From a virus, in IMG/VR virus record IMGVR_UViG_3300006802_000388, positions 1 through 28,922 of that record: 28,922 bases of DNA. One strand, given 5' to 3'. The position numbers and the translations under genes are program-made. Position 1 is the first letter of the stretch, and each line of letters starts with the position of its first letter. The notes under the pieces were generated by a model that worked only from the letters and a program-made list of their open reading frames with translations, was not told the DNA's origin and ran no database searches. Below are positions 14,712-28,922 of this stretch, one piece after another.

Positions 14712-14712
14712 A

Positions 14713-17384: not shown

Positions 17385-17385
17385 T

Positions 17386-17835: not shown

Positions 17836-18533
17836 TTAAGGCATATGTTATAAGAATTGTTGACAACGAGGTCTCAGAGAAAGCAGCAAACCGTTTAATT
17901 GAGAGTTCTAAGTTTGTTTCCAATCAATTCGAGATAGAAAAGTTTAATGCTGTTGTTCCGGAAAGAATAAATGAGATTTGTAAACGATCAAATCTGAGAT
18001 GGAATTATCCCTGGCAGGGTGTTCACGACGATTGGGCATCAGGATTAATGAAGATTGCCTATGAGACAGCGAATCCTGAAAAGCGAGTTGCCTGTTTTCT
18101 TTCGCACTATTTGCTTTGGTGCGAATCAGTTGCTTTCGGAGAACCGATTTTAATCTTTGAACATGACGCGTTGTTTCAAGAACATCTAGACGTTGACTTG
18201 CTTTTAGAATCAAGATATGGTATTATAGGTCTTAATGATCCAAGAGGCGCTACTAGGAGATCGTTACAATTTTATGAGATCATGCAAGCAAACCCTGACG
18301 CAATTCAACCTGCACCCAAAGTCGATGATATGAAAATACCACAAGGTATTGCTGGTAACTCTGCTTATCTAATTAAACCAGAAGCTGCTATGAAACTAAT
18401 CAATCTAACAGATGAGTTTGGTATGTGGCCAAATGATGCTATTATGTGTCAGCAGTTATTGCCAGGAGTGCTTGGTGTTACTAAAACATATCACACAACA
18501 ATTCAAAGGACTCAATCAACAACAACATTATGA
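17832..18533 (+). CDS. GT25-like glycosyltransferase with EHDA motif, copy 3
   Basis: This is the copy closest to bacterial GT25 enzymes: K-A-Y-V-I-R-I-V-D-N (3-12) is the N-terminal strand, V-A-C-F-L-S-H-Y-L-L-W (86-96) the acceptor helix, and I-L-I-F-E-H-D-A-L-F (106-115) the metal-binding region. G-I-A-G-N-S-A-Y-L-I-K-P-E-A-A (about 173-187) follows as the family's Y-x-i strand. The length of 233 aa is typical. It is probably a direct duplicate of, or sister to, the next gene, which begins M-K-S-Y-V-I-T-I-K-D. It overlaps that gene by 4 bp. Confidence 0.7.
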   Translation: MIKAYVIRIVDNEVSEKAANRLIESSKFVSNQFEIEKFNAVVPERINEICKRSNLRWNYPWQGVHDDWASGLMKIAYETANPEKRVACFLSHYLLWCESVAFGEPILIFEHDALFQEHLDVDLLLESRYGIIGLNDPRGATRRSLQFYEIMQANPDAIQPAPKVDDMKIPQGIAGNSAYLIKPEAAMKLINLTDEFGMWPNDAIMCQQLLPGVLGVTKTYHTTIQRTQSTTTL

Positions 18534-19177
18534 AATCATACGTAATCACAATCAAAGATCTTCCCAAATCAGTAGAAATCGCTCAACGTTGTGCTAATTC
18601 TCTAAGAGATTATAATGTTCAAATGTTTGATGCCTTTACGCCTAAGAACAAACCAGAAGCATTACTCGAAAGCGAAGGAATACCCACTAAGAATTTTAAA
18701 GAGGTATACTCAAACTATGAGAATTGTATGGCAGCATTTTTCTCTCACTATTCTCTTTGGAAACAATGCGCTGAACAAGGTATTGAGTATCAAATATTTG
18801 AGCACGACGCAGTAGCAGTAAACGATATTCCTATGGTTATACCTTATAACAAAGTAATCAGTTTAGGCAAACCAAGTTATGGAAGGTATAATGTACCAAC
18901 GAATCTTGGTGTCAATCCTCTACAATCAAAAAAATATTTCCCAGGAGCACATGCTTATCGCCTCAAACCAGAGGGAGCGAAAGAGTTAATTGAACGAGCA
19001 AAAGTAGACGCAGGACCAACAGATATATACTTACATCTCGGTAGGTTTCCTTGGTTAGAAGAATATTATCCTTGGCCAGTAGAAGCAAGAGATCATTTTA
19101 CTACAATTCAAAGACAAGAAGGATGCTTAGCAAAACATAGTTATGGAGAAGGATATGAAATCCTCAGGCATGAGTAG
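18530..19177 (+). CDS. GT25-like glycosyltransferase with EHDA motif, copy 4
   Basis: The same order of motifs: S-Y-V-I-T-I-K-D (3-10), M-A-A-F-F-S-H-Y-S-L-W (67-77), Y-Q-I-F-E-H-D-A-V (87-95), then F-P-G-A-H-A-Y-R-L-K-P-E-G-A (about 139-152). Head-to-tail placement with copy 3 and similar ends (both finish near T-x-x-x-T-T-I-Q-R) point to tandem duplication. The C-terminal tail differs. Donor and acceptor cannot be read. It overlaps the GT8-like gene's chosen start by 23 bp. Confidence 0.68.
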   Translation: MKSYVITIKDLPKSVEIAQRCANSLRDYNVQMFDAFTPKNKPEALLESEGIPTKNFKEVYSNYENCMAAFFSHYSLWKQCAEQGIEYQIFEHDAVAVNDIPMVIPYNKVISLGKPSYGRYNVPTNLGVNPLQSKKYFPGAHAYRLKPEGAKELIERAKVDAGPTDIYLHLGRFPWLEEYYPWPVEARDHFTTIQRQEGCLAKHSYGEGYEILRHE

Positions 19178-19820
19178 ATGTTTTATAACTGGTTGTGATT
19201 CTAACACCGAATGGATGCTACCGTGGTTTGCAAAAAACTACGCTAAACATAACGATACTGAAATTGGGTTTGTCGACTTTGGAGTTACTGAAGAAACACG
19301 TGCGTGGGTTTATCAACAATCGCCGTTTAAGTTTATCTTAGATGTTCCTCGTCAAAGAGTTAATGGATGGTTTCTTAAACCGAAGGCATTAATTAAAACT
19401 CCGCGCCATGAAGTTTGTTGGATTGATACTGACATACACGTTCTTGGTGATATTTCTGGTATCTTTAATTATCTTGAAGAAGGTAAACTCGCAATGGTTG
19501 AAGATAAACCATGGAGCAAGAGAAGAGGTGAAACCTGGCACAACTCAGGCGTAGTTGGTATTAGGGGCAAACCACCAATTCTAACTGACTGGGTAGATGC
19601 TTGTTACGAGAATCCGAAGGTTGGGGATCAAGAGGTTTTGCATGAAATGTTGGTTGAGTCCCCTTTAAAACGCCTCAGCAATATAGTAGACTTACCCAAT
19701 ATATACAATTGGTTAAGGATTCAACTATTAGACGGTGACGATAATCCCAATAAATTGTGTATGCATTGGACTGGACATAAGGGCAACCTAGAAATCAGGA
19801 AGTTGATTTACAATGAGTAA
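19155..19820 (+). CDS. GT8-like glycosyltransferase (GT-A)
   Basis: D91-T-D93 in C-W-I-D-T-D-I-H-V is the D-x-D motif. Upstream W-F-L-K-P-K-A-L (72-79) and downstream W-H-N-S-G-V-V-G (N-x-G region), D-Q-E-V-L-H-E-M (D-Q) and the C-terminal C-M-H-W-T-G-H-K-G follow the GT8 order, where H-x-x-G-x-x-K binds the nucleotide. I choose ATG 19155, with GGAG six bases before it; 19143 and 19170 are alternatives in the same frame. It closes the main transferase run. Confidence 0.65.
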   Translation: MKSSGMSRCFITGCDSNTEWMLPWFAKNYAKHNDTEIGFVDFGVTEETRAWVYQQSPFKFILDVPRQRVNGWFLKPKALIKTPRHEVCWIDTDIHVLGDISGIFNYLEEGKLAMVEDKPWSKRRGETWHNSGVVGIRGKPPILTDWVDACYENPKVGDQEVLHEMLVESPLKRLSNIVDLPNIYNWLRIQLLDGDDNPNKLCMHWTGHKGNLEIRKLIYNE

Positions 19821-19968
19821 GATTATTGAATTTCCCAAAAAACTTAATGTAATACAAAAACAAGCACAAGATATACTTGAAGAACTTAATGAGATTAATG
19901 AACAAGTTGACGAGATTAATCGTCAAACACAGATGATATTGGAAATGTTTGAGGATAATAATGAGTAA
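19813..19968 (+). CDS. Short coiled-coil protein (51 aa)
   Basis: It starts at ATG 19813, 8 bp inside the GT8-like gene. After M-S-K-I-I-E-F-P-K-K, the rest is a heptad-rich helix (I-L-E-E-L-N-E-I-N-E-Q-V-D-E-I-N-R-Q), typical of a two-stranded coiled coil. It has no Cys or membrane segment. Its stop overlaps the next start (ATGAGTAA). It may serve as an oligomerisation or scaffold peptide, but no function is recognised. Confidence 0.6.
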   Translation: MSKIIEFPKKLNVIQKQAQDILEELNEINEQVDEINRQTQMILEMFEDNNE

Positions 19969-20680
19969 GGTAGTTCATATTTTAGGTAATGGTGATAAAG
20001 CACATTTCTATCATAATGTGAAGAAAGGCGCAGATGATATGAAACTAATCTGTAATCTTCCACCATTCGAAATACCCATTAACGAAGTCTATGCTACATG
20101 CATGGTAGATTTTAAGATGATGGCAGCATTGACTGCTAATGCGCTGAACCTAGATGCCTATCGTTGGGTATTGGGTAATCGCCCTAAGATTTGGATGACT
20201 GCTCCTAACAACAGCATGTTTTATTTTAAATATGCTCCAAACATTCGAGAGTTTTATTTGAAAGTTCCAAAGTATGCTGGCAATGCCACTAATTTTAACT
20301 GCGGACATATGGCAGTACATTATGCTGCCAATAAACATAAAGCAGAGGAAATTCATATGTATGGATTCGATTCTATTTTTGATTTTAACATGAGGAGTTA
20401 TACTGACGTTGTTTTGTCGAGCGACAGAGGAAACGCCAACAACTATCGCCTCCTAGGTAACTGGCGACCAATCTGGACTGGAATCTTTAAAGAGTTTCCT
20501 AATACTAAATTTGTTATGCATCATGATCACACAGATGTTAAAGTTGAAATAACAAAGAACGTTGAAATTGTTGTTCATAATCCGAAACCGAAAGAGGAAC
20601 CATCGGAATGGAACAACAAGTTGGTTAAAAGAGCGAAAGACACCTCTACAGCATTGGATAGATTGAAAGCGCGTGTTTGA
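19961..20680 (+). CDS. Conserved phage protein, possibly sialyltransferase/MptE-like fold
   Basis: The protein begins V-V-H-I-L-G-N-G-D-K (4-13), a nucleotide-binding-type strand-loop, and has C-G-H-M-A-V-H-Y-A-A near the middle followed by E-I-H-M-Y-G-F-D-S. The pattern G-x-x-A-x-x-x-A ... I-x-x-x-G-x-D recalls DUF115/MptE-like and GT42 (sialyltransferase) proteins, which would fit the glycan setting, but the resemblance is short and unproven. I use ATG 19961 (M-S-K-V-V-H), with GAGG six bases upstream, rather than 19949. The C-terminal ~40 residues are charged and helical. Confidence 0.6.
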   Translation: MSKVVHILGNGDKAHFYHNVKKGADDMKLICNLPPFEIPINEVYATCMVDFKMMAALTANALNLDAYRWVLGNRPKIWMTAPNNSMFYFKYAPNIREFYLKVPKYAGNATNFNCGHMAVHYAANKHKAEEIHMYGFDSIFDFNMRSYTDVVLSSDRGNANNYRLLGNWRPIWTGIFKEFPNTKFVMHHDHTDVKVEITKNVEIVVHNPKPKEEPSEWNNKLVKRAKDTSTALDRLKARV

Positions 20681-21350
20681 ACATGTTAAAGTCGATCTTG
20701 GTTACAATGACCTTGAATCGCATACAGGTGAAACAAAAAGAACTTACGCAACTCCGGATGGCGTTAGGTATCCATCTATCACAACAGTTCTTAGCATTCT
20801 TAGCGAAAATTCTATCTCTGAGTGGCGTAAACGGGTAGGCGAAGAAGAAGCAAATAGAATTTCTACACGCGCTTCCAGAAGAGGTACAGCAGTTCACGAA
20901 GCAATCGAAAAATATATAGATAATTCTCCATGGGAGAACATCGTCAAAGAATATACCCCAGATGTTATTGAATCAATTATAAATGTTCGAGATATACTAG
21001 ATGCAAGAATCGGAAAAGTATACGGGCAGGAACTTCCTCTTTATAGTGACCATCTACGTGTTGCTGGGCGTGTCGATTGTGTTGCTGAATTTGACGGAAA
21101 GATATCAATCATTGATTTTAAAACATCCAGAAAACCAAAGCGAAGTGATTGGATCAAATCCTATTTCTGCCAAGAAGCAGCATACGCAATCATGTGGGAA
21201 GAACGCACTGGAATGCCAATTACCCAACTCGTTACCATAATAGCAGTTGATCAGTCAGAAGCACAGGTTTTTATCGAAAAACGAGACGATCATACCGCTC
21301 TTTTAACCGAAACAATAGCGACCTACGAAAAACGTTTGCAAAATCAATAA
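20673..21350 (+). CDS. PD-(D/E)XK nuclease (MGME1-like, RecB/Cas4 fold)
   Basis: R-R-G-T-A-V-H-E (69-76) gives the His of this nuclease group, Q-E (119-120) the second acidic site, G-R-V-D (132-135) the metal-binding Asp, and I-I-D-F-K-T-S (146-152) the D-x-K pair. S-Y-F-C-Q-E-A-A-Y-A is the following Gln helix. The N-terminus, with P-S-I-T-T-V-L-S, is also typical. Phage members are thought to be single-strand DNA exonucleases in replication or recombination. The start is GTG 20673, overlapping the previous stop by 8 bp. Its last codons (Q-N-Q-stop) lie in the first copy of the repeated promoter block. Confidence 0.85.
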   Translation: MFEHVKVDLGYNDLESHTGETKRTYATPDGVRYPSITTVLSILSENSISEWRKRVGEEEANRISTRASRRGTAVHEAIEKYIDNSPWENIVKEYTPDVIESIINVRDILDARIGKVYGQELPLYSDHLRVAGRVDCVAEFDGKISIIDFKTSRKPKRSDWIKSYFCQEAAYAIMWEERTGMPITQLVTIIAVDQSEAQVFIEKRDDHTALLTETIATYEKRLQNQ

Positions 21351-21387
21351 CTTACCACTTTACTTTTTCGAACGAATTGGGCATAAT
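21340..21387 (+). promoter_or_regulatory. Repeated promoter cassette, copy 1
   Basis: The block AAAATCAATAACTTACCAC is followed by TTTACT (21359-21364), a 17-bp spacer and CATAAT (21382-21387). It overlaps the nuclease gene's stop codon. The predicted start near 21394 leaves a short leader to the ATG at 21414, which has AAGGA. It is the first of three near-identical blocks. Confidence 0.7.
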
Positions 21388-21413
21388 GTGTTTTCTTAAA
21401 AAGGAAATGTAAA

Positions 21414-21593
21414 ATGATTAAAGTTAAATTAGAGTTAAGAATTAAGCGTTTTTTAAATAATTATAGCGCCGCCCGCTATATCCCGCTACACCCTGATGAT
21501 TATAACCTTTTAAAATCTGAAGGTCGCCTAAACGATTTTCCACTTCCGCTTTTTAAACTAAAACCCTCCGGTGGTGGTAAAAAACCCGTTTAA
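21414..21593 (+). CDS. Small protein of unknown function (59 aa), early-type
   Basis: The ATG follows AAAAAGGAAATGTAAA, a good ribosome binding site, about 20 bases behind promoter copy 1. The protein is basic at the N-terminus (M-I-K-V-K-L-E-L-R-I-K-R-F), with a central Y-I-P-L-H-P-D-D-Y-N-L-L and a Pro/Gly-rich end P-S-G-G-G-K-K-P-V. There is no known motif. Promoter context is the best evidence that it is real. Such small promoter-proximal proteins in phages often target host functions; here that is only a guess. Confidence 0.55.
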   Translation: MIKVKLELRIKRFLNNYSAARYIPLHPDDYNLLKSEGRLNDFPLPLFKLKPSGGGKKPV

Positions 21594-21639
21594 AATCAAT
21601 GGGTTAGCACTTTACTTTTTTCCTGAAATATTAGACAAT
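21591..21639 (+). promoter_or_regulatory. Repeated promoter cassette, copy 2
   Basis: AAAATCAATGGGTTAGCAC, then TTTACT (21611-21616), exactly 17 bp, and GACAAT (21634-21639). The block begins with the TAA of the preceding gene. The gene served starts at 21666 after AAGGAGA. The -10 is weaker than in copies 1 and 3. Confidence 0.65.
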
Positions 21640-21665
21640 ACTCTTGTAATTAAGGAGAATGAAAT

Positions 21666-21956
21666 ATGTTAAGAAACGGTGATCTGATTAAAGCGTTCGA
21701 ATTCGAACCAATTCCTGGTCGTGAAGATAAATATGTAATCGGCGCTATCGACCGTATCGAAGAATACGGATACGTAATCAAAGGTGAAACCATCATCAAA
21801 GATACCGCATACGGCACTGCTCGAATGAATGAAAATGTTACTGTTCGAGTCCCTTTCAAGACCAGATTTGAGTATGATGGTCGTATCGTTGCTCTGACTG
21901 AGGATTTTCGCTTCACTGAAGCATATTACGATGAATTTCCTGAGCAAAATCAATAA
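21666..21956 (+). CDS. Conserved phage protein of unknown function (96 aa)
   Basis: The ATG has AAGGAGA upstream. The protein reads as a small beta-rich domain: D-L-I-K-A-F-E-F-E-P-I-P-G-R-E-D-K-Y-V-I-G-A-I, Y-V-I-K-G-E-T-I-I-K, V-T-V-R-V-P-F and E-Y-D-G-R-I-V. The opening 'F-E-P-x-P-x-R-x-x-x-Y-V-x-G' pattern is found in unnamed phage proteins of other tailed phages, as far as I recall. It ends E-Q-N-Q-stop, because its last codons belong to promoter block copy 3. No function can be given. Confidence 0.65.
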   Translation: MLRNGDLIKAFEFEPIPGREDKYVIGAIDRIEEYGYVIKGETIIKDTAYGTARMNENVTVRVPFKTRFEYDGRIVALTEDFRFTEAYYDEFPEQNQ

Positions 21957-21993
21957 CTTATCGCTTTACTTTTTGGCTGGTTTAGACGATAAT
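21946..21993 (+). promoter_or_regulatory. Repeated promoter cassette, copy 3
   Basis: AAAATCAATAACTTATCGC, then TTTACT (21965-21970), 17 bp, and GATAAT (21988-21993). It overlaps the preceding stop codon as copy 1 does, giving both genes a Q-N-Q C-terminus. It serves the gene at 22018 (AAGGAAAAGTA ribosome binding site). Confidence 0.7.
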
Positions 21994-22017
21994 ATTCTTA
22001 TAAGTTAAGGAAAAGTA

Positions 22018-22176
22018 ATGAATCGTAAAAAATTAAATCATGAAGTTGGTTCGGTTTATCAGCGTCCTATTCTTGCCGAACCAGAAATCGCTGAGATGGC
22101 AATTATCGTTGCTAGTCTCGGTATGATCTTCACTTTCTTCGCCGCTCTGGCGATCTTACCTTGGAGCGTAATCTAA
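22018..22176 (+). CDS. Small single-pass membrane protein (52 aa)
   Basis: The polar N-terminal part (M-N-R-K-K-L-N-H-E-V-G-S-V-Y-Q-R-P) is followed by one hydrophobic segment of about 22 residues (M-A-I-I-V-A-S-L-G-M-I-F-T-F-F-A-A-L-A-I-L-P, roughly 27-48). It is the first gene behind promoter copy 3. Its TAA overlaps the next ATG (TAATG). A host-membrane or lysis-timing role is possible, but no family is recognised. Confidence 0.6.
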   Translation: MNRKKLNHEVGSVYQRPILAEPEIAEMAIIVASLGMIFTFFAALAILPWSVI

Positions 22177-22619
22177 TGGCAATGCAAGTCACAAGAAACA
22201 CTCACACGATGCATATCGTGAATCGTCTAAAAAGCATTTGTGAAAAACACGACTGGTACTTTACGTTAGCAGATGACTATCGTGCTTATGAAGCAGGTTT
22301 AGTCGTTGCTGATGAGATCAACTATCTCAAAAACGTGTTGGTTGCTCGTGGGTATGAGAGACAAGCAAAGTCTTTGATTGATCATTATCGTCCTGCGATG
22401 CCCACATTGGAAACAATGTTGAAACCTAAACCCACAAAGACACCTAAGTCTTATCCAATCGAGGAACGAAACATTCTTTGTGATTGGAGACTGCATGGTT
22501 ATCCTGAAAACGATGACTCATTCGTGAAACGTTTGGTGGAACAAGGTTACACGGAAGATGCAGCCGTGGAGTTGATGGTTGAGTACAAAATGGATTATGA
22601 AGAATGGAGAAATTCATAA
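22176..22619 (+). CDS. Hypothetical protein (147 aa)
   Basis: I start it at ATG 22176, coupled to the previous stop, rather than at an upstream TTG inside that gene. The protein has two apparent helical halves joined by a Pro/Lys-rich linker (L-K-P-K-P-T-K-T-P-K-S-Y-P, around 82-95). The second half includes C-D-W-R-L-H-G-Y-P-E-N and E-Q-G-Y-T-E-D-A-A-V-E-L. No catalytic pattern is evident. It is part of the early-type small-gene run, and its stop overlaps the next start (TAATG). Confidence 0.6.
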   Translation: MAMQVTRNTHTMHIVNRLKSICEKHDWYFTLADDYRAYEAGLVVADEINYLKNVLVARGYERQAKSLIDHYRPAMPTLETMLKPKPTKTPKSYPIEERNILCDWRLHGYPENDDSFVKRLVEQGYTEDAAVELMVEYKMDYEEWRNS

Positions 22620-22837
22620 TGGATACGATTATTGTAATTGAAAAAATGAAAGAAGAGACTTTGGAGATGGCCATCTCCGCGGGTATAAAAACAAAGGGAT
22701 CTTGGTTTGTTCGTGAGTACGAAGATCAAGAAAGTTTTGATGCTGATTGTGAAATCAGTGGATCTTTTCACAAAACTTTAGAAGATGCTCTTGAAGCAGT
22801 TAAAGACATCTTTGAAGAAGCGGAGTTGTGGGCATGA
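22619..22837 (+). CDS. Hypothetical acidic protein (72 aa)
   Basis: The start at 22619 overlaps the preceding TAA; GGAG at 22605-22608 is a plausible ribosome binding site. The protein is acidic: M-D-T-I-I-V-I-E-K-M, a middle S-W-F-V-R-E-Y-E-D-Q-E-S-F-D-A-D, and a helical end A-L-E-A-V-K-D-I-F-E-E-A-E. It looks like a small alpha/beta domain. Nothing links it to a named family. It overlaps the following gene by 4 bp (ATGA). Confidence 0.55.
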   Translation: MDTIIVIEKMKEETLEMAISAGIKTKGSWFVREYEDQESFDADCEISGSFHKTLEDALEAVKDIFEEAELWA

Positions 22838-23316
22838 ACGGATTTCGTAAGATGCAGGAACGTCTTGGTAAAGAAGGTTGGTTTGTTGGTTGGAATCTTC
22901 CTTGTTGTCAGACGTGTGCGTGGGAAGAGTTGAATTGGATTGATGTGGTAGAAGATACCACAAAAGTTCTTTTCAATCACTCTCAGGATTGTGAGGTCGA
23001 AAGCAGCGAGGAAGAATGCCCCATGTGTGACGGTGAAGGAGTCGTTGAAGGAGCTACTGGCGAACTCGATGAAGATTGCCTAGAATGCAGAGGAACAGGA
23101 TACATGGATTTTGGAAGTGACGTCAGCGATTACGACACATCCGTAGGTGGTTTTGTTTGTTATTCGCCTGAACAACAGAATAGTTCTTTGTTTTGTTTTG
23201 ATGGCAGTGAAGAAGGTGTAGAGAACCTAAAGACAATCGTTCCTATTATTGAAGAATGCGGATGTACCGTAAATTGGAACGAAACTGGGGACTCTCGTAT
23301 TGAAATCAGTTGGTGA
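22834..23316 (+). CDS. DUF6891-like protein with an inserted DnaJ-type zinc finger
   Basis: The N-terminus G-W-F-V-G-W-N-L-P-C-C-Q-T-C-A-W (15-30) and F-N-H-S-Q-D-C-E (47-54) resemble DUF6891 proteins; the C-terminal V-N-W-N-E-T-G-D-S-R-I-E-I-S-W completes the domain. Between them lie C62-P-M-C65-D-G-E-G and C82-L-E-C85-R-G-T-G, the C-x-x-C-x-G-x-G pair of DnaJ-type zinc fingers, enough for one zinc. The combination is unusual. The start is the ATG in ATGA, not the upstream GTG. Function is unknown; zinc binding is well supported by the motif. Confidence 0.65.
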   Translation: MNGFRKMQERLGKEGWFVGWNLPCCQTCAWEELNWIDVVEDTTKVLFNHSQDCEVESSEEECPMCDGEGVVEGATGELDEDCLECRGTGYMDFGSDVSDYDTSVGGFVCYSPEQQNSSLFCFDGSEEGVENLKTIVPIIEECGCTVNWNETGDSRIEISW

Positions 23317-23326
23317 GGTAAGATAA

Positions 23327-23482
23327 ATGAATAAAGTAAAGTCGGGACTCGAAGTCTCTTTTGATAATCTAATGGAATCTTTTGATCGTATACAAAAAAG
23401 ATGTGATCGGTTAGAAAAGATTACCATTGGATTGTATGTGTTAAGCATATTGACTTTTATCGTAATTTACACTAGAATATAG
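23327..23482 (+). CDS. Small C-tail-anchored membrane protein (51 aa)
   Basis: GAGG upstream of the ATG supports the start. The first 30 residues are a charged helix (S-F-D-N-L-M-E-S-F-D-R-I-Q-K-R-C-D-R-L-E-K-I), followed by a C-terminal hydrophobic segment (I-G-L-Y-V-L-S-I-L-T-F-I-V-I-Y, about 34-48), so it would be anchored by its tail. The -35 and -10 boxes of the tRNA promoter lie in its last codons. No family is recognised. Confidence 0.55.
   Translation: MNKVKSGLEVSFDNLMESFDRIQKRCDRLEKITIGLYVLSILTFIVIYTRI
23450..23478 (+). promoter_or_regulatory. Sigma70-like promoter upstream of the tRNA cluster
   Basis: TTGACT (23450-23455), 17-bp spacer, TAGAAT (23473-23478). The start site near 23485 lies ahead of the possible tRNA relic, the three tRNAs and the isocitrate lyase gene. 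No terminator is evident between the last tRNA and that gene, so it could drive all of them. Confidence 0.55.
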
Positions 23483-23539
23483 ATAAAGGTTTGGTAAGAT
23501 GATCAATTTCACGCTCTCCTTAACTACATGTGATCATCG

Positions 23540-23586
23540 GACATTGCGCGGGGTGGAGGCAATTCGTGCGAAGGGGCGACAATGTC
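23540..23586 (+). ncRNA. Possible tRNA-fMet relic / stem closing over a start codon
   Basis: CGCGGGGTGGAG (23547-23558) is identical to the 5' end of bacterial initiator tRNA, and GCGAAGG further on recalls its anticodon-arm exit, but the arm itself and the T-arm are missing. GACATTG (23540-23546) pairs perfectly with CAATGTC (23580-23586), which contains the ATG (23582) of the next gene. It is either a decayed tRNA or a regulatory stem. Low certainty. Confidence 0.3.
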
Positions 23587-23800
23587 ATTCTTTTTAATGC
23601 CAACCAAAGACTCGAGTGGTCAGTGGTGGCACGAGGGTAAACCAGTTGAAATGTTCGTTATGACTGATGATGAGAAACGTGCTTATGTTGAAGCACAAAT
23701 TGGGAGTGTAGGAAAATTGGTAACCCCATCGGACTGTAAATCCGACGCCGACGGCATTGATGGTTCAAGTCCATCCGCTCCCACCAGTTTTAGAATGTGA
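23582..23800 (+). CDS. Small protein running into tRNA-Tyr (72 aa as read)
   Basis: AAGGGG five bases before the ATG is a fair ribosome binding site. The first ~40 residues look protein-like: F-F-L-M-P-T-K-D, W-W-H-E-G-K-P-V-E-M-F-V-M-T-D-D-E-K-R-A-Y-V-E-A-Q-I. From about residue 41 the frame runs through the complete tRNA-Tyr gene, so the C-terminus is tRNA sequence read as codons. The tRNA may have been inserted into the gene's 3' end, leaving a truncated gene with a chance extension. Function unknown. Confidence 0.4.
   Translation: MSFFLMPTKDSSGQWWHEGKPVEMFVMTDDEKRAYVEAQIGSVGKLVTPSDCKSDADGIDGSSPSAPTSFRM
23702..23786 (+). tRNA. tRNA-Tyr (anticodon GTA)
   Basis: The acceptor GGGAGTG pairs with CGCTCCC (one G-T). 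The anticodon stem TCGGA/TCCGA encloses CTGTAAA with anticodon GTA, a long variable arm follows as expected for bacterial tRNA-Tyr (class II), and the T-arm ATGG-TTCAAGT-CCAT precedes the encoded ACCA end. First of three tandem tRNAs. Confidence 0.95.
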
Positions 23801-23802
23801 TT

Positions 23803-23878
23803 GCCGCTATAGCTCAGCAGGTAGAGCAACTGATTTGTAATCAGTAGGTCCCGAGTTCGATTCTTGGTGGCGGCACCA
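23803..23878 (+). tRNA. tRNA-Thr (anticodon TGT)
   Basis: GCCGCTA pairs with TGGCGGC at the ends (one T-G). The anticodon stem ACTGA/TCAGT encloses TTTGTAA, anticodon TGT, and the T-loop is TTCGATT. CCA is encoded. It reads ACA and related Thr codons common in this AT-rich genome. Confidence 0.95.
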
Positions 23879-23880
23879 TT

Positions 23881-23957
23881 CGGAGTGTAGCGCAGTTTGG
23901 TAGCGCATCTGCTTTGGGAGCAGAGGGTCGGGGGTTCGAATCCCTCCACTCCGACCA
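23881..23957 (+). tRNA. tRNA-Pro (anticodon TGG)
   Basis: The acceptor CGGAGTG pairs with CACTCCG. The anticodon stem TCTGC/GCAGA encloses TTTGGGA, anticodon TGG. The T-arm GGGGG-TTCGAAT-CCCTC and encoded ACCA complete it. It lies two bases after tRNA-Thr and 20 bases before the isocitrate lyase ATG. Confidence 0.95.
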
Positions 23958-23977
23958 ATTTGTAACAAGAGGAAATT

Positions 23978-25192
23978 ATGGGCAACAAAAGAACATACAC
24001 AGAAGAAGATGTAGAAAAACTAAAAGGTAGTGTCCGAATCGAGCATACGTTAGCAAAACACGGTGCTTTAGAACTTAGACGTTTGCTTAGAGAAAATGAC
24101 TATATAAACACATTTGGTGCTTATAATGGTCAGCAAGCAATTCAACACGTTAAAGCAGGTCTTGAAGCAATCTATGTCTCAGGTTGGCAAGTTGCTGCAG
24201 CCGCTAATACAGGAAACGCAGTCTATCCTGATCAGAGTTTGTATCCCGTTGATAGTGTACCCCGCGTGGTGGCTAATATCAATAATGCTTTTCGTAGGCA
24301 AGATCAAATCGAATATCTTGAATCCGAAGGATTCGGTGGATTTCCTTTTGCGCCCATCATCGCGGACGCGGAAGCAGGATTCGGTGGAGCATTAAACGCA
24401 TATGAACTCGCTCGTAATCTCATTGAAGCAGGTGCGGCAGCGGTACACTTTGAAGATCAACTCGCTAGTGAAAAGAAGTGCGGTCATCTGGGAGGAAAGG
24501 TACTTATCCCAACCAGTCAAGCTGTACGAAATCTTAATGCTGCCCGTCTTGCTGCTGATGTATGTGATGTTCCTACAGTCATCATCGCTAGAACGGATGC
24601 TGAGTCTGCTAAACTCCTTTCTTCAGACGTAGATGAAATAGATCGTAAGTTTATGACAGGCGAGCGAACGCCAGAAGGTTTCTACAAAATCAATGGCGGG
24701 TTGTTCTATGGTTGCGAGCGAGGACAAGCATATGCTGAATATGCGGATCTTGTTTGGTGTGAGACCAGCACTCCCGATCTCAAAGAAGCAAAGATGTTTT
24801 CTGATGCGGTACGTGGTGCGTTTCCTGATCAAATGCTGGCATACAATTGTTCGCCAAGTTTTAACTGGAGACAAAGCATTCCTAGTTCAGAAGAACTGAA
24901 GAACTTTCAGAAAGAACTTGCTAAACTAGGATTCAAGTTTCAGTTTATTACGCTTGCTGGGTTTCATCAAACCAACTACAGCATCTTTGAGTTTGCTCGA
25001 AGGTATAAGAAGTCGGGTATGCTTGCCTACTCAGATCTGCAAGAGCAAGAGTTTGCTGCAGAGAGAGATGGTTACACTTCAGTCAAGCATCAGCGTGAGG
25101 TTGGCGTAGGTTACTTCGACGCGATTAGTACCGCTCTTGGCGCTGGCAGTGTAGCAGCAATGGCAGACAGCACAGAGGCAGATCAGTTTTAA
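23978..25192 (+). CDS. aceA: Isocitrate lyase
   Basis: Isocitrate lyase splits isocitrate into succinate and glyoxylate, the first step of the glyoxylate shunt. The signature K166-K167-C168-G169-H170 with L-G-G-K-V-L after it is complete; C168 is the catalytic base position. Other conserved blocks are S-G-W-Q-V-A-A (68-74), Y-P-D-Q-S-L-Y-P (83-90), A-D-A-E-A-G-F-G-G (129-137, metal site), H-F-E-D-Q-L (157-162), R-T-D-A-E-S (205-210), W-C-E-T-S-T-P-D (260-267), N-C-S-P-S-F-N-W (290-297) and the C-terminal S-T-E-A-D-Q-F. At 404 aa it is about 30 shorter than the E. coli enzyme (434), mainly at the N-terminus and in one loop. AGAGG precedes the ATG. No catalytic residue seems lost. Methylisocitrate lyase (PrpB, ~290 aa) is less likely by length and by the KKCGH motif. 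Confidence 0.95.
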
Positions 25193-25202
25193 AAAAGTGG
25201 AA

Positions 25203-25277
25203 GTCCGTTGAGATGGTAATGGCCGGACAAGTGTGGTAGTAGGAATACGCCAGATGCACAGGTTGGTTCTACCACAC
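25203..25277 (+). ncRNA. Two-hairpin structured RNA candidate downstream of isocitrate lyase
   Basis: The 105-bp gap after the isocitrate lyase gene holds GTCCG (25204-25208) pairing with CGGAC (25224-25228), then GTGTGGTAG (25231-25239) pairing perfectly over nine bases with CTACCACAC (25269-25277), with a 29-base loop. No T run follows, so it is not an ordinary terminator. It may be a phage small RNA, a 3' UTR stabiliser or a decayed tRNA; no known family is recognised. Confidence 0.4.
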
Positions 25278-25297
25278 ATTTAAGTAAAGGAGAATCT

Positions 25298-25546
25298 ATG
25301 GAAATTTTATTTGAAGTTCTAGGAGCTCTATTCTTCTTGTTAATTGGTATTTGCGGATGCATTTATGGATTGACTAATGACTTAAAAAAGAGTAGTATTG
25401 AAGATAACAGTATTACATTGAAACATGGTTTCGATGGAATTTATACCTTAATACATAAAGGACAAGAGTGGCATTACTCAAGTTTTTCAGAAGCATTGAA
25501 ACATATGGATTCATTACGAAGACCCCCAACCGGAGATCCTAAATGA
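25298..25546 (+). CDS. Small membrane-anchored protein (82 aa)
   Basis: AAAGGAGA lies just before the ATG. The N-terminal ~25 residues are hydrophobic (I-L-F-E-V-L-G-A-L-F-F-L-L-I-G-I-C-G-C-I-Y-G-L) and would anchor the protein with the remainder in the cytoplasm or periplasm. The soluble part includes H-G-F-D-G-I-Y-T-L-I-H-K-G-Q-E-W-H-Y-S-S-F-S-E-A-L, a small domain that may bind a ligand. No family is recognised. It overlaps the next gene by 4 bp. Confidence 0.6.
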   Translation: MEILFEVLGALFFLLIGICGCIYGLTNDLKKSSIEDNSITLKHGFDGIYTLIHKGQEWHYSSFSEALKHMDSLRRPPTGDPK

Positions 25547-25734
25547 AACTCACAAGAGAGTCTTTTACTGGCAGCACGTTAGACGAATTGGTTCTAGATA
25601 TACTAGAAAGTCAGTTAGAAGACGTAATAGAACTGAGTAATGATCAAAAACTTATTGATGCATTTAAATACGTAATCGCATACAACAGTGTGCCCGGAAC
25701 CTATGAGGATGGAAAATATGACCTGTCAAGTTAA
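25543..25734 (+). CDS. Hypothetical protein (63 aa), duplicated gene copy A
   Basis: The protein is acidic and helical (L-D-E-L-V-L-D-I-L-E-S-Q-L-E-D-V-I-E-L) and ends F-K-Y-V-I-A-Y-N-S-V-P-G-T-Y-E-D-G-K-Y-D-L-S-S. The last ~25 residues are almost identical to those of the next gene (25744), and 40 bp are perfectly repeated (25687-25726 and 25900-25939), so the two come from a tandem duplication of ~213 bp. No function is known. The short frame ATG-ACC-TGT after the repeat mirrors the thyX start. Confidence 0.6.
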   Translation: MKLTRESFTGSTLDELVLDILESQLEDVIELSNDQKLIDAFKYVIAYNSVPGTYEDGKYDLSS

Positions 25735-25939
25735 GGATTGTACATGATAACGAGAAGTGACCTAAACGAACATGCATTTGAGCAATTGATTCGCAACGCA
25801 TTGATTGAACAACTTGAGGATTTCGAAGATAGTATGAACGATGATAGTATTCGTGATACTACTTTGGTCGAAGCATTTAAACGTGTAATTGCATACAATA
25901 GTGTGCCCGGAACCTATGAGGATGGAAAATATGACCTGT
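25687..25939 (+). repeat. 40-bp direct repeat pair, 213 bp apart
   Basis: The 40 bases at 25687-25726 recur without change at 25900-25939. They cover the ends of two small paralogous genes, the GAGGATGGA ribosome binding site and the first bases of thyX (ATGACCTGT). Similarity extends further upstream with scattered changes (GCATTTAAA-CGTAAT-GCATACAA). Confidence 0.9.
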
Positions 25940-25941
25940 GA
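25744..25941 (+). CDS. Hypothetical protein (65 aa), duplicated gene copy B
   Basis: The ATG at 25744 (M-I-T-R-S-D-L-N-E-H) is preferred over an upstream TTG. The body is acidic and helical (E-Q-L-E-D-F-E-D-S-M-N-D-D), ending V-E-A-F-K-R-V-I-A-Y-N-S-V-P-G-T-Y-E-D-G-K-Y-D-L, the same end as copy A. Its end overlaps the thyX start by 11 bp. Because copy A keeps the same end plus a remnant of thyX codons, copy B is probably the original neighbour of thyX. Confidence 0.6.
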   Translation: MITRSDLNEHAFEQLIRNALIEQLEDFEDSMNDDSIRDTTLVEAFKRVIAYNSVPGTYEDGKYDL

Positions 25942-26617
25942 AGTAAGTCTAGTTGGTATGACATCGCCCAGTGCAATTACTGGTTGTCATACTGCAAATG
26001 AATTGATTGCTTATGCTGCTAGGGTAAGTAATCCAGCGAATCAGAATAACGAGAAAACAGCATCAAAGTTGTTGCGTTATTTAATCAAAGAAGGTCATTG
26101 GTCACCATTTGAAATGGTTTCAGTCACGATGGAAATTAAGACTACGCGAGATATCTCTCGTCAAATCTTACGCCATCGTTCTTTTTCGTTTCAAGAATTT
26201 AGTCAACGCTACGCGGTCAGTGAAGGTTTCACAACTAAACGAGAAGCACGTAAACAGCACCCTACGAACCGTCAACTGTCTATGGCGGACGATGACCCAA
26301 CTCGTCAAAAGAAGGCGCAGGAGGTCTTTAACGAAATGCAGGCAGAGGTTGCTAAGGTCGCCAAAGACTATTATGAGATGGCGTTGAATAATGGTATTGC
26401 CAAAGAGCAAGCACGCGCTCTGCTTCCTGAGGGTCTCACTGAGACTACTTTGTATATGGCAGGGACGTTACGCTCTTGGGTTCATTATTGCGAACTGAGG
26501 CGAGGACACGGAACTCAAAAAGAGCACATTGAGGTTGCCGACAAGTGTTGGGAAATCCTTGGTGTGCATTTTCCCGATGTAGTTAAAGCAGTGGAGATGC
26601 TAGATGAAGATAGGTGA
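25931..26617 (+). CDS. thyX: FAD-dependent thymidylate synthase
   Basis: ThyX makes dTMP from dUMP using FAD, methylenetetrahydrofolate and NADPH. The signature R81-H-R-S-F-S-F-Q-E-F-S-Q-R-Y94 matches the R-H-R-x7-S-x-R pattern. Other family parts are S-P-F-E-M-V (58-63) and the C-terminal L-R-S-W-V-H-Y-C-E-L-R. The length of 228 aa is typical. I start at ATG 25931 (M-T-C-E-V), with GAGGATGGA upstream; two upstream in-frame ATGs lie in the preceding gene. It would supply dTMP together with ribonucleotide reductase for phage DNA synthesis. It overlaps the next gene by 14 bp. Confidence 0.92.
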   Translation: MTCEVSLVGMTSPSAITGCHTANELIAYAARVSNPANQNNEKTASKLLRYLIKEGHWSPFEMVSVTMEIKTTRDISRQILRHRSFSFQEFSQRYAVSEGFTTKREARKQHPTNRQLSMADDDPTRQKKAQEVFNEMQAEVAKVAKDYYEMALNNGIAKEQARALLPEGLTETTLYMAGTLRSWVHYCELRRGHGTQKEHIEVADKCWEILGVHFPDVVKAVEMLDEDR

Positions 26618-26753
26618 TAAACTTAATGGTGGTACAATCGTTGAGATTTTTGACGAAGGTTATGCTGTTTCTCGTAAAAACAAAAAAGAGGAAAACTATC
26701 CTCATCACAAAACCGAATATGTTACTTTCGTAAGGAAAACTGATGAACGGTAA
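26604..26753 (+). CDS. Small protein (49 aa), unknown function
   Basis: The ATG lies 14 bp inside the end of thyX, with GGAGATG ahead of it. The sequence M-K-I-G-D-K-L-N-G-G-T-I-V-E-I-F-D-E-G-Y-A-V-S reads as a small beta-barrel-like strand set, followed by K-N-K-K-E-E-N-Y-P-H-H-K-T-E-Y-V-T-F-V-R. A KOW/SH3-like fold would fit but is a guess. It overlaps the next gene by 11 bp. Confidence 0.5.
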   Translation: MKIGDKLNGGTIVEIFDEGYAVSRKNKKEENYPHHKTEYVTFVRKTDER

Positions 26754-26886
26754 GAAAGCAAAAATGCTCCGAAGAAGTGGAGTGGTTGACAAAAAGGCAA
26801 AAAGAGATTACAATAAGTTAAATCGGTTTGAAAAAGAATTTCTTTCTGCCTTCTATAAAGCAAAACAACTTAGCGAGAACAAATGA
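26743..26886 (+). CDS. Small basic protein (47 aa)
   Basis: ATG 26743 overlaps the previous gene; AAGGAAAA lies upstream. It is strongly basic: M-N-G-K-K-A-K-M-L-R-R-S-G, then K-K-A-K-R-D-Y-N-K-L-N-R-F-E-K-E-F, and looks helical. Similar phage mini-proteins are probable nucleic-acid binders (inference). A near-perfect promoter (TTGACA, TACAAT) falls in its middle. It overlaps the next gene by 4 bp (ATGA). Confidence 0.5.
   Translation: MNGKKAKMLRRSGVVDKKAKRDYNKLNRFEKEFLSAFYKAKQLSENK
26786..26814 (+). promoter_or_regulatory. Strong-looking sigma70-like promoter inside a small gene
   Basis: TTGACA (26786-26791) is a perfect -35 box; 17 bp later TACAAT (26809-26814) matches five of six -10 bases. 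It would drive the 26883 gene from a start near 26821. Its location in a coding region makes a chance match possible, but the score is the best in the window. Confidence 0.5.
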
Positions 26887-27482
26887 ATATATTTGCACTA
26901 AATCTTAATCCAGAGATCGCCGCAAGTGAGCAATGCGATCAACATGTTATTAAGATGTCTTGTGAGTACGCTCAATTACTTTCCACCTGCCATCGTATTT
27001 GCGATGGTATGGTTTGGGAAGGCACCAGTGCTAAGACTGGTCGTAAGATCAAAAGATATATTCTTGAAGATGATGAGATGAATGAGAATTTATATCTTGC
27101 TTGTCACAACAATCATCCTTCTAACATCTGGGTTCGACAATCAGTAAATAACTATCAGTGGTTGTACAAACTCTGGGTCTCAACGTGTAAAGAATATTCG
27201 CGTCGCTATGATAAAGTTCATGCTTCTTTGATTAAATTGCAGCAGTATTTAATCAACCCTCCTGTAAATATTCCTAATGCTCCCTTCACACAACCCACTC
27301 CTGCCATGAAACAGTATCCGCATTGTATTGTTCCTGGCGATTCTGTGCAGAGTTACAAGAACTTCTACTGGGAAGACAAACGTAAGTTTGCTACCTGGAC
27401 CAACAGACCTAAACCAAAATGGTGGCAAGAATTCGAAGCAAAAACCGATATACATATGAATGATAAACTGGTACTAACATGA
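26883..27482 (+). CDS. Conserved phage/bacterial protein, pyrimidine-dimer-glycosylase-annotated family
   Basis: The N-terminus M-N-I-F-A-L-N-L-N-P-E-I-A-A-S-E-Q-C-D-Q-H-V-I-K-M matches a family seen in many tailed phages and proteobacteria (typical form: D-x-D-P-x-x-A-A-x-x-x-C-D-K-H-V). Later blocks also fit: N-H-P-S-N-I-W-V-R-Q-S (113-124 region), N-Y-Q-W-L, P-F-T-Q-P-T-P and the end W-T-N-R-P-K-P-K-W-W. Such proteins are sometimes labelled pyrimidine dimer DNA glycosylase, but I see no T4 DenV-like catalytic N-terminus, so the function should be treated as unknown. A promoter-like sequence lies just upstream. Confidence 0.6.
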   Translation: MNIFALNLNPEIAASEQCDQHVIKMSCEYAQLLSTCHRICDGMVWEGTSAKTGRKIKRYILEDDEMNENLYLACHNNHPSNIWVRQSVNNYQWLYKLWVSTCKEYSRRYDKVHASLIKLQQYLINPPVNIPNAPFTQPTPAMKQYPHCIVPGDSVQSYKNFYWEDKRKFATWTNRPKPKWWQEFEAKTDIHMNDKLVLT

Positions 27483-27697
27483 GTCTCGAACACAAACGCG
27501 GAATGATAACTGAAGAAATTTCGAAACATATGTCTGAAAACGGCAAACTTATTGCAATTGTTGTTAAAACCGAAAAAGGATATATGGTTGAACTTTACGA
27601 AAAAAGTAGGTATATTAGAACTGTTGATGTTACAACTCGCAGTCTTCAATATGCTGAAGACGCAGCAGAGAATTACGTATTAGGGTTTCCTGTATAA
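27479..27697 (+). CDS. Hypothetical protein (72 aa)
   Basis: The gene overlaps the previous one by 4 bp. The protein has a short N-terminal helix (M-I-T-E-E-I-S-K-H-M), then beta-like segments: I-A-I-V-V-K-T-E-K-G-Y-M-V-E-L-Y-E and R-Y-I-R-T-V-D-V-T-T, and an acidic end. The G-K-L-I-A-I-V and Y-M-V-E-L spacing suggests a small beta sheet with a helix. Its 3' end overlaps the leftward gene's 3' end by 25 bp. No family is recognised. Confidence 0.55.
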   Translation: MSLEHKRGMITEEISKHMSENGKLIAIVVKTEKGYMVELYEKSRYIRTVDVTTRSLQYAEDAAENYVLGFPV

Positions 27698-27936
27698 ATT
27701 CTCTGAAGCATAGTTTCGAATTGTTCTACTTTATTGAGTCTATCTGGCCAATAGATGTAGTCTTTCTCAGGATTCATTTTTAAGTTTGTGAGCAATGGTT
27801 GTATGGCATTAAATAGTTTCTCAAGTCTTTCGTTTGTAGAAACTGCTTCTTCAACCTTAATTGATGCTTGTTGTACTGCTTCGAGTTCTTCCTCATTTAC
27901 TGCGGTAAACCCGAAATCGAAGAAATCGTCAGACAT
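27673..27936 (-). CDS. Conserved marine-phage protein (87 aa) on the opposite strand
   Basis: The only convincing leftward gene. It starts M-S-D-D-F-F-D-F-G-F-T-A-V-N-E-E-E-L-E-A-V and includes M-N-P-E-K-D-Y-I-Y-W-P-D-R. This start and the NPEKDYIYWP block are strongly conserved in marine T4-like phages, which argues that the frame is real. The middle is helical, with heptad-like Glu/Leu spacing. It is preceded by AAGGATTAGAA (ribosome binding site) and a CATAAATA late-promoter-like element. The role is unknown; late expression suggests a virion or assembly protein (inference). Confidence 0.75.
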   Translation of the reverse strand: MSDDFFDFGFTAVNEEELEAVQQASIKVEEAVSTNERLEKLFNAIQPLLTNLKMNPEKDYIYWPDRLNKVEQFETMLQRIYTGNPNT

Positions 27937-27962
27937 TTCTAATCCTTGTTATTGAGTAGGTA

Positions 27963-27970
27963 TATTTATG
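27963..27970 (-). promoter_or_regulatory. T4-like late promoter element
   Basis: On the minus strand CATAAATA (27970 to 27963) lies 26 bases before the leftward gene's start, close to T4's late consensus TATAAATA. The leader would be about 20 bases and includes AAGGATT as ribosome binding site. It overlaps the ATG of the rightward dehydrogenase gene. Confidence 0.4.
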
Positions 27971-28735
27971 AAGATAGTGATTGCTGGTTATGGTGCTGTT
28001 GGTAAGGCGATTTATGAATGCCTTTACGAATCAGACGCAGAACTTTTTATTGATGATCCTGCGCTTGGGCATCATGTCGACACAGATGTTATGAAACCAG
28101 ACGCGGTTGTTGTTTGCGTTGCAACACCAATGAGAGAAGATGGTTCTTGTAATACTGACCACGTCGAAGAAGTGTTCATGAAATACAATGGTGTCAAGTA
28201 TTTAATTAAATCTGCTGTTAATCCTGTTTGGTTGAGTAAAGCAGTAAAATCATATAGAGGAAGTTACACTTATTCTCCTGAGTTTCTTCGAGGTAGTCAT
28301 GTACATGCTAATCCAACTCAAGAATTTCTTGACTCAGAGTTCGCTATCTATGGAGGAGATGACTGTCGTTGGTGGGACGAGTTGTTTAGACCACACCTAC
28401 CTAAACTCAAAGAAGTAAAATACTGCTCTCTCGACCAAGCAGCGTTCGCTAAATATGTTGAAAATTGTTTTCTCGCAACCAAAGTAACATTCTTCAACGA
28501 GATGTATAGAATTTATAATCAATGCGGGTTCGAAGGTTTTGATCAAATGGTTGATGCAATAACTGTCGATCCTCGCATCGGTCGTTCACACACTCAGGTT
28601 CCAGGACCAGACGGTAAGTTTGGATATGGTGGGCATTGTTTTCCAAAAGACATAGCAGCACTTCGGCACATTGCGAAAGAAAGTCCATTACTGGACGCAG
28701 TAACAGATATTAACGAAGAACATAGAAATGCCTAG
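27968..28735 (+). CDS. Short UDP-glucose/GDP-mannose dehydrogenase-family protein
   Basis: G7-Y-G-A-V-G12 is the NAD-binding loop. The core then follows the family: V-A-T-P-M-R-E-D-G-S (51-60), Y-S-P-E-F-L-R (102-108), A-K-Y-V-E-N (161-166; Lys and Asn catalytic), and G-Y-G-G-H-C224-F-P-K-D (219-228), with the catalytic Cys. This family oxidises NDP-sugars twice to NDP-uronic acids. At 255 aa it lacks the C-terminal UDP-binding domain of full-length enzymes (390-450 aa), so it may be a minimal phage form or bind a different sugar donor. It could supply an acidic sugar to the 7.6-20 kb glycan island (inference). It overlaps the next gene by 8 bp. Confidence 0.85.
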   Translation: MKIVIAGYGAVGKAIYECLYESDAELFIDDPALGHHVDTDVMKPDAVVVCVATPMREDGSCNTDHVEEVFMKYNGVKYLIKSAVNPVWLSKAVKSYRGSYTYSPEFLRGSHVHANPTQEFLDSEFAIYGGDDCRWWDELFRPHLPKLKEVKYCSLDQAAFAKYVENCFLATKVTFFNEMYRIYNQCGFEGFDQMVDAITVDPRIGRSHTQVPGPDGKFGYGGHCFPKDIAALRHIAKESPLLDAVTDINEEHRNA

Positions 28736-28922
28736 GAAAAAGAAAGCAACATTCGTTCCCAAGAAAAAGAAAACACTTATTCCCGAACCTAATTGGGACA
28801 AGTTAAGAAAGGCAAAGACAGAAGAAGAGAAACTTGCTGCTTTCAAAGCAGCAGAAGATTTCGCTCAATATGAAGCAGATCCTAAACTCGCTCTACATTG
28901 GTTAAAGAAGTGGATTCGTGAA
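28728..28922 (+). CDS. Conserved phage protein, 3' end beyond window
   Basis: The frame is open to the window end, with 65 codons visible. It begins M-P-R-K-K-K-A-T-F-V-P-K-K-K-K-T-L-I-P-E-P-N-W-D-K-L and continues K-T-E-E-E-K-L-A-A-F-K-A-A-E-D-F-A. The start resembles marine T4-like phage proteins (opening M-A-R-K-K-K-x-T-F-V-P-K-K) of unknown function. It is coupled to the dehydrogenase by an overlapping start (ATGCCTAG). The last visible residues are basic and Trp-rich. The product length is unknown. Confidence 0.65.
   Translation, partial: MPRKKKATFVPKKKKTLIPEPNWDKLRKAKTEEEKLAAFKAAEDFAQYEADPKLALHWLKKWIRE

Follow-up and report, generated by a model that had tools for sequence, protein, structure and literature searches.

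A phage-borne isocitrate lyase from a separate viral clade, with close relatives behind malate synthase in small-genome Gammaproteobacteria

Isocitrate lyase (ICL) cleaves isocitrate to glyoxylate and succinate, drawing on the same substrate as isocitrate dehydrogenase. Phage-borne ICL as such is already known (PMC4053976, PMC5332604, PMC10721903, PMC12783922). According to the accessible part of the Pacific Ocean Virome study, aceA and aceB are among the viral gene families of that data set (PMC4053976). ICL is likewise viewed there as a viral auxiliary metabolic gene, but the evidence consists of virome gene families, whereas the gene described here is complete, stands in its genome context and is an aceA without aceB. 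An aceBA operon occurs in TARA_ERS478052_N000008, an environmental viral genome of 179 kb whose structural genes are T4-like, as described in the accessible text of PMC5332604. That genome resembles ours in combining T4-like genes with ICL, but its aceB adjoins aceA, whereas none of the 44 ICL-bearing records that we searched encodes malate synthase. In a proglacial lake, viral AceA was said to come from phyla other than that of the host (PMC12783922). That work also combines phylogeny with suggested gene transfer; its accessible portion contains neither the replacement of a bacterial aceA nor a link to alternative oxidase (AOX). In the open-access literature, we found no earlier report of a separate viral ICL clade lacking malate synthase, of its exchange between distant phages, of an AOX gene paired with a phage ICL as its partner, or of bacterial replacement by a phage-type ICL.

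The window, a 28,922-nt stretch of viral DNA, encodes an ICL behind a cluster of tRNA genes (Table 1). With a probability of about 0.66, we consider this gene to encode a working ICL of a large T4-like phage, belonging to a lineage kept and exchanged among phages, that would feed the glyoxylate shunt together with host malate synthase. An earlier note on this DNA had described a 404-residue ICL that starts 20 bp past a tRNA-Pro, with ThyX in the same region. The open reading frame and full-length profile matches bear out the ICL, ARAGORN and Rfam place the tRNA as described, and profile matches locate ThyX downstream. A promoter scan returned 3 sites versus 5.1 expected by chance, and a promoter-like site at 23450-23478 was no better than chance.

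Table 1. Features of the ICL locus and its surroundings, in window coordinates
Feature	Coordinates	Strand	Basis
tRNA-Tyr (gta)	23702..23786	+	ARAGORN, Rfam
tRNA-Thr (tgt)	23803..23878	+	ARAGORN, Rfam
tRNA-Pro (tgg), 20 bp upstream of ICL start	23881..23957	+	ARAGORN, Rfam
AGAGG, Shine-Dalgarno-like, 5 nt before ATG of ICL; putative function	23968..23972	+	read from sequence
Isocitrate lyase (ICL) gene, 404 aa	23978..25192	+	ORF, domain profiles, structure alignment, active-site alignment
ThyX, flavin-dependent thymidylate synthase; TTG 25889 is the first start, ATG at 25916; context only	25889..26617	+	ORF, domain profiles

The protein matched the NCBIfam isocitrate lyase equivalog NF011645 over residues 3-404 with 649.7 bits (cut-off 562), TIGR01346 with 516.9 bits (cut-off 275.9) and the Pfam ICL family (PF00463) with an E-value of 1.2e-94. 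The solved ICLs 7cmx and 6lrp matched at about 1e-160. Residues 23-434 of a further solved ICL, 1igw (434 aa), which we take to be the E. coli enzyme, align with residues 3-404 of the window protein. The phage enzyme is therefore 30 residues shorter with all blocks present, in agreement with the earlier claim of a protein about 30 residues shorter than E. coli AceA with its catalytic blocks intact. The motifs named in that claim, KKCGHLGG and NCSPSFNW, were found in the translation at residues 166-173 and 290-297, respectively. Overall, the phage ICL shares with bacterial AceA (NF011645, PF00463) its whole-length homology, active site and C-terminal tail, and differs in its shorter N-terminus, its separate viral clade, the lack of a malate synthase gene in the records searched and the phage tRNA array upstream. 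An AlphaFold model built from 16 sequences had a mean pLDDT of 65.8, and no reading was based on it.

To relate the sequence to catalysis, residues were mapped via structure alignment, with roles drawn partly from general knowledge and partly from the accessible text on the M. tuberculosis enzyme (PMC8099091). Across 60 aligned ICLs, of which 37 are viral, 8 are bacterial but of the viral type and 15 are ordinary, nineteen active-site and neighbouring positions are conserved, except that one row (L263) has an X at three of them. At the C-terminus, S398, T399, E400, Q403 and F404 are invariant across 16 viral sequences; in the M. tuberculosis ICL, this tail closes the active site of the partner, according to the same part of that source (PMC8099091). 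The ICL lineage is under purifying selection: dN/dS (Nei-Gojobori) was 0.025-0.112 in 10 of 12 viral ICL pairs, the other two being saturated. The saturated pairs are both those that include the window ICL (pS 0.76 and 0.86, pN 0.10 and 0.16). Several hallmarks of an auxiliary metabolic gene were found, namely a viral genome, viral neighbours, recurrence in related viruses and selection.

The window is the opening part of the 155,131-bp IMG/VR contig G001, whose first 28,922 bases it matches at 99.99% identity, with 3 mismatches and no gap. A second contig, L001, spans window positions 17427-28922 with 1 base difference in 11,496. The tRNA-ICL junction is identical base for base in the two contigs, whose IMG/VR sample numbers differ, although the samples may not be independent. 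An assembly accident at the ICL is unlikely, given the 155-kb T4-like contig, the second contig with the same junction and the 80 viral loci kept from our scan. A host-phage chimera or host contamination was likewise ruled out by the repeated junction and the viral relatives.

G001 was compared with phage C48C1, a complete 156-kb record filed under Kyanoviridae. TerL is 74% identical between the two, the portal 70%, the major head protein 67% and the DNA polymerase 55%. C48C1 also encodes an ICL (44175-45416), annotated only as a hypothetical protein, that is 72.9% identical to that of the window. Gene order is largely common to the two phages, yet the position of the ICL differs. The idea of the ICL as an inherited locus fails for this pair, as the gene is placed elsewhere despite the shared order.

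Several other features of this phage genome were recorded. A class II (B12-type) ribonucleotide reductase gene at window 2473-4092 stops early, whereas G001 reads on to 4395 (640 aa); the early stop is either a polymorphism or a base error. A Radical SAM/SPASM-like protein is encoded at 8470-9447 (69% identical to its C48C1 counterpart). At 9434-19820, 15 genes on the same strand, mostly without C48C1 counterparts, look like a phage glycan cluster: four of them match glycosyltransferase family 25, and the run also holds a HAD/nucleotidyltransferase fusion, a cupin and a gene with a weak methyltransferase match. A direct repeat of 75 bp (91%) surrounds the ThyX start (25657-25731 and 25870-25944), and a 289-bp stretch at 21333-21621 recurs at G001 137377-137663 (89%). 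Elsewhere in G001, IMP dehydrogenase-like and NifU-like genes are found at 136131-137186 (L092 16131-17183) and 135109-135528 (L092 15109-15525), respectively. L089 and L090 cover a run between 75.0 and 94.9 kb whose 16 genes, encoding 279-456 aa and interspersed with a few small ones, are without C48C1 counterparts and are perhaps related to tail fibres or adhesins.

We then looked for partner genes in 44 ICL-bearing records, chosen from 81 ICL loci mainly by record length and including L001 and L002, both of which are the window's own phage. Malate synthase (PF01274) was detected in none of the 44, seven of which exceed 130 kb; 6 of 14 control genomes gave a match. The earlier statement that the window lacks malate synthase thus holds even for the 155,131-bp parent contig. 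Nor was an aceBA operon, which would place the whole shunt on the phage, encountered, as malate synthase stood next to the ICL in 0 of 44 records. A scan of viral contigs for malate synthase itself yielded 50 loci, 46 of them also with an ICL, 51-63% identical to that of the window, and none with AOX. We would guess that many of these 50 loci may be host DNA.

AOX (PF01786) scored above cut-off in 12 of the 44 ICL records, C48C1 included, and in 0 of the 14 control genomes. A profile search found no AOX in G001, the 155-kb contig of the window's phage. Within the fetched stretches, AOX lies near the ICL in 10 of 81 ICL loci. Among the best 80 AOX loci kept, 13 have an ICL nearby; of the 21 flanked on each side by 5 kb or more, 5 do. 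An ICL is thus missing from the neighbourhood of most of these AOX loci. In three loci the ICL stop and the predicted AOX start overlap, by 4 bases in L053, 1 base in L004 and 4 bases in L034. All seven AOX proteins inspected contain the AOX motifs NExxH, EEE and DExxH. PTOX is related to AOX and belongs to the same superfamily. Cyanophage PTOX, as presented in the accessible part of PMC7472177, is a phage-borne quinol oxidase too, but the AOX of the phages studied here matches only one of 50,697 phage records, C48C1 (26279-26830, L081 2099-2650; annotated as a hypothetical protein), and no cyanophage. A cyanophage origin of the ICL-bearing phages is also disfavoured by psbA (PF00124), which was found in 0 of the 44 ICL records while the control, Synechococcus elongatus, gave a match. 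This gene is missing from some cyanophages according to the same part of that source (PMC7472177), and its absence weighs against such an origin, short of excluding it.

Relatives of the ICL are encoded in 123 stretches of viral contigs, the best 80 of which are 67-100% identical to the window's enzyme, its own phage included. In the phage collection, 9 of 50,697 records match and C48C1 alone exceeds 60%. Based on record names and identities, the Salmonella, Escherichia and Acinetobacter records among those nine look like host DNA. Reading frames are intact across the lineage, contig ends excepted. A search for the tRNA-aceA junction in other viruses, suggested in the earlier note together with a phylogeny, revealed that viral ICLs are often placed directly behind a tRNA: one lies at most 30 bp upstream in 30 of the 79 viral loci with enough upstream sequence, although these counts are not independent, many loci being near-copies. 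Six kinds of tRNA (Pro, Tyr, Ser, Ala, Glu and Gly) occur just upstream of viral ICLs. Within 250 bp, a tRNA is present in 37 of the 79 loci and a tmRNA in 1.

To gauge inheritance of the ICL, its identities were compared with those of terminases, which matched in 11 of 45 searched records; two partial matches were excluded, leaving nine. Terminases of phages that share the ICL are as low as 31-46% identical. The terminase of G001 is 34% identical to that of G002, with ICLs 82% identical, and 74% identical to that of C48C1, with ICLs 76% identical. In G023 and G031, by contrast, the terminases are 91% identical and the ICLs 79%. Over 36 pairs, which are not independent, the rank correlation between terminase and ICL identity was 0.60. 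These comparisons suggest that the ICL has been partly inherited and partly exchanged across deep phage groups.

In the first phylogeny, comprising 41 viral ICLs and 80 bacterial ones (the best 80 kept among the matches listed, from genome contigs), all viral rows fell in one clade together with a single bacterial row, L094, from MAG MED656. These viral ICLs thus form one clade apart from ordinary bacterial ICLs. SAR11 was rejected as the source of the gene: among the best 80 genome loci kept, SAR11 ICLs are 57-59% identical and lie outside the clade. For a second tree of 109 rows, 25 were added to the 121, while L094, which comes from the same genome as L263, was taken out along with 21 SAR11 rows and 15 further bacterial ones. 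In this tree, the seven bacterial ICLs group together (SH-aLRT 95) and unite with the viral L055 and L061 (95) inside a set of 48 rows (100) that, G109 aside, is otherwise viral. Removal of four viral near-copies and most ordinary bacterial rows left 60 rows, in which the bacterial clade was supported at 100/97, its union with L055/L061 at 100/97 and a 44-row set at 100/99; the deeper branching inside the latter was not resolved in this careful tree. An AU test rejected a single clade of all viral rows (plus G109) with p-AU 0.00041. When the test was repeated under a simpler model, with one long row and three partial bacterial rows taken out, p-AU was 0.00043. The AU tests were run after the tree was seen, and the bootstrap of the repeat tree was not settled.

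The branch that is sister to the bacterial clade is a phage branch. The ICL of L063 is 99.3% identical to that of L061, and L063 carries genes related to the phage clamp, clamp-loader and translation-repressor genes, as named in the C48C1 annotation. Near the ICL, L055 (11851-12396) and L061 (4144-4701), the phages closest to the bacterial clade, also have a gene 63-64% identical to the C48C1 peroxiredoxin.

L094 is a piece of bacterial chromosome in which malate synthase directly precedes the ICL; its gene content ruled out a phage contig in the MAG. An order-level search found an ICL 73-77% identical to the window's in 8 of 147 genomes. At the phylum level (398 genomes), MED656 itself was the only one above 64%. 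Within the MED656 family, 7 of 11 genomes (1.1-1.5 Mb) carry the phage-type ICL, broken as assembled in two of the seven copies (G116 and G140). Of the remainder, two have an ordinary ICL (54 and 57%), one a weak 39% match and one none. Four genomes, G044 (MED656), G098, G108 and G123, share the order signal peptidase II, Fur-family, Bax-inhibitor-like, Mrp-like, HTH/DUF3612 regulator, malate synthase and phage-type ICL, the families having been confirmed by Pfam on G098. G140 retains a partial regulator, malate synthase and the ICL, while only a 44-residue end of malate synthase precedes the ICL in G116 and the ICL of G060 is at a contig end. In G074, of the same family, Bax-inhibitor-like, Mrp-like, regulator and malate synthase genes are followed by an ordinary 426-aa ICL.

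The neighbours of G123 are closer to those of G074 (regulator 79.8%, Mrp 76.4%, malate synthase 74.3%) than to those of G044 (62.0%, 62.1% and 69.0%, respectively). By contrast, the ICLs of G123 and G044 are 86% identical, while those of G044 and G074 are 53% identical. The ICL therefore did not follow its neighbours and was exchanged at the locus. By the tree, the exchange would have come from a phage, perhaps more than once or with later transfer between bacteria. Five of these ICLs follow malate synthase, at the position that an ordinary ICL occupies in a sister genome, which suggests phage-to-host replacement in small-genome Gammaproteobacteria. We see an even chance that two things hold together: that in one family of marine Gammaproteobacteria with small genomes a phage-evolved ICL took over the position of the native aceA behind aceB, perhaps repeatedly, which would give these free-living bacteria a central carbon enzyme of viral origin; and that ICL and AOX work as a unit in several related phages, coupling the shunt to non-pumping respiration.

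G109 is a weaker second case. Its ICL, 86% identical to that of viral L053, lies on a contig of 6 kb (G109:C37) and is followed there by an AOX gene and genes for cytochrome c oxidase. Among the 40 genomes of its family, this ICL type occurs in G109 only and AOX matches in two. Given its length and the single family genome with this ICL, yet also its cytochrome c oxidase genes, the contig may be a real acquisition or a misbinned piece. In G086 (L332 4-555), the ICL adjoins the regulator with no malate synthase A between them, and a piece of malate synthase G domain lies nearby. The MED656 MAG also contains a 15.9-kb contig (G044:C19) with a partial T4-like terminase (6-809, L254), 48% identical to that of the window's phage; this contig is perhaps a co-binned phage.

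Judging from the bacterial copies, some of these phages, if not more, would infect marine Gammaproteobacteria. A permuted tmRNA (Rfam RF04321, 102-111 bits) lies upstream of the ICL in L052 (4066-4279), L057 (1916-2132), L059 (7426-7639) and L064 (7340-7610), all four contigs having been picked because ARAGORN had already called a tmRNA there. The permuted form occurs in Alphaproteobacteria and cyanobacteria, and a phage-borne tmRNA is a possible hint to the host. These four contigs speak against a single host group, as do the assignments of ICL-bearing viruses to Pelagibacter and Woesiales in the accessible part of PMC10721903.

In the proposed mechanism, the ICL would be expressed during infection and would split isocitrate into glyoxylate and succinate. 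Since malate synthase is absent from the parent contig, the shunt would need that of the host to turn glyoxylate into malate. Such a shunt would be free of host transcriptional control and would spare the carbon of two TCA decarboxylations, and the succinate would enter the host respiratory chain. In the AOX-bearing relatives, ubiquinol could be reoxidised without proton pumping, so that high NADH or ATP would not have to halt the flow of carbon; this step would not apply to the window's own phage as sequenced. The earlier note had proposed a bypass of this kind. Its description of a phage-borne, complete ICL with an intact active site stands, as does the missing malate synthase, now extended to the 155-kb contig; the shunt role itself remains a proposal drawn from the identity of the enzyme, the missing partner gene and established biochemistry.

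An active ICL might serve other ends. Instead of becoming malate, its glyoxylate could be converted by a host aminotransferase to glycine, which would then supply one-carbon units and purines for phage DNA. The absence of malate synthase from all 44 ICL-bearing records would fit such a route, as would the investment in nucleotide synthesis represented by the window's ThyX and by the IMP dehydrogenase of the parent contig, but the latter two genes are common enough in phages to say little, and we consider this fate of glyoxylate unlikely. The lack of a malate synthase partner is equally compatible with an enzyme that acts mainly by lowering isocitrate and 2-oxoglutarate, or by making succinate, and so alters host nitrogen signalling or hinders 2-oxoglutarate-dependent enzymes. 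Competition of ICL with isocitrate dehydrogenase is established biochemistry, but 12 of 44 related records have AOX as a partner, which suggests a part in the flow of carbon and electrons and makes this role quite improbable. Finally, the gene could be passenger DNA, a chance host-gene capture or assembly join with no role in infection. tRNA arrays are sites of gene gain and loss, and capture at such an array is one known route. Against this, the junction recurs in two contigs and relatives are found in the 80 kept viral loci, the frames are intact with dN/dS of 0.025-0.112, and the ICL is present across phages with terminases 31-46% identical. We regard passenger DNA as very improbable, and favour the working ICL that would supply a shunt completed by the host.

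As to ancestry, bacteria could be the source rather than the recipients: phages may have acquired the ICL on several occasions from bacteria of an unsampled lineage that survives in the G044 family. Few bacterial genomes were sampled (147 from the order, 398 from the phylum and 11 from the family, with genome ICLs taken only among the matches listed), and the unresolved deeper branching of the 60-row tree leaves room for this reading. The bacterial rows are nonetheless shallow, a single clade nested with a viral sister pair in an otherwise viral clade (100/97 at both nodes), a viruses-only clade was rejected in both AU tests, and a sister genome keeps the ordinary ICL at the same locus. We hold a bacterial source to be a real possibility, although below even odds, and continue to prefer transfer from phage to host.

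If true, these readings would mean that phages keep their own lineage of a central enzyme, which goes beyond a mere borrowing of glyoxylate-shunt genes. They would also provide a testable system, in which one enzyme, without a phage partner gene found, would depend on host malate synthase and has a terminal oxidase partner in some relatives. The ICL would be common to distantly related phages and would have been handed to bacteria that carry the gene behind aceB, so that a core metabolic gene of wild bacteria would clearly descend from viruses.
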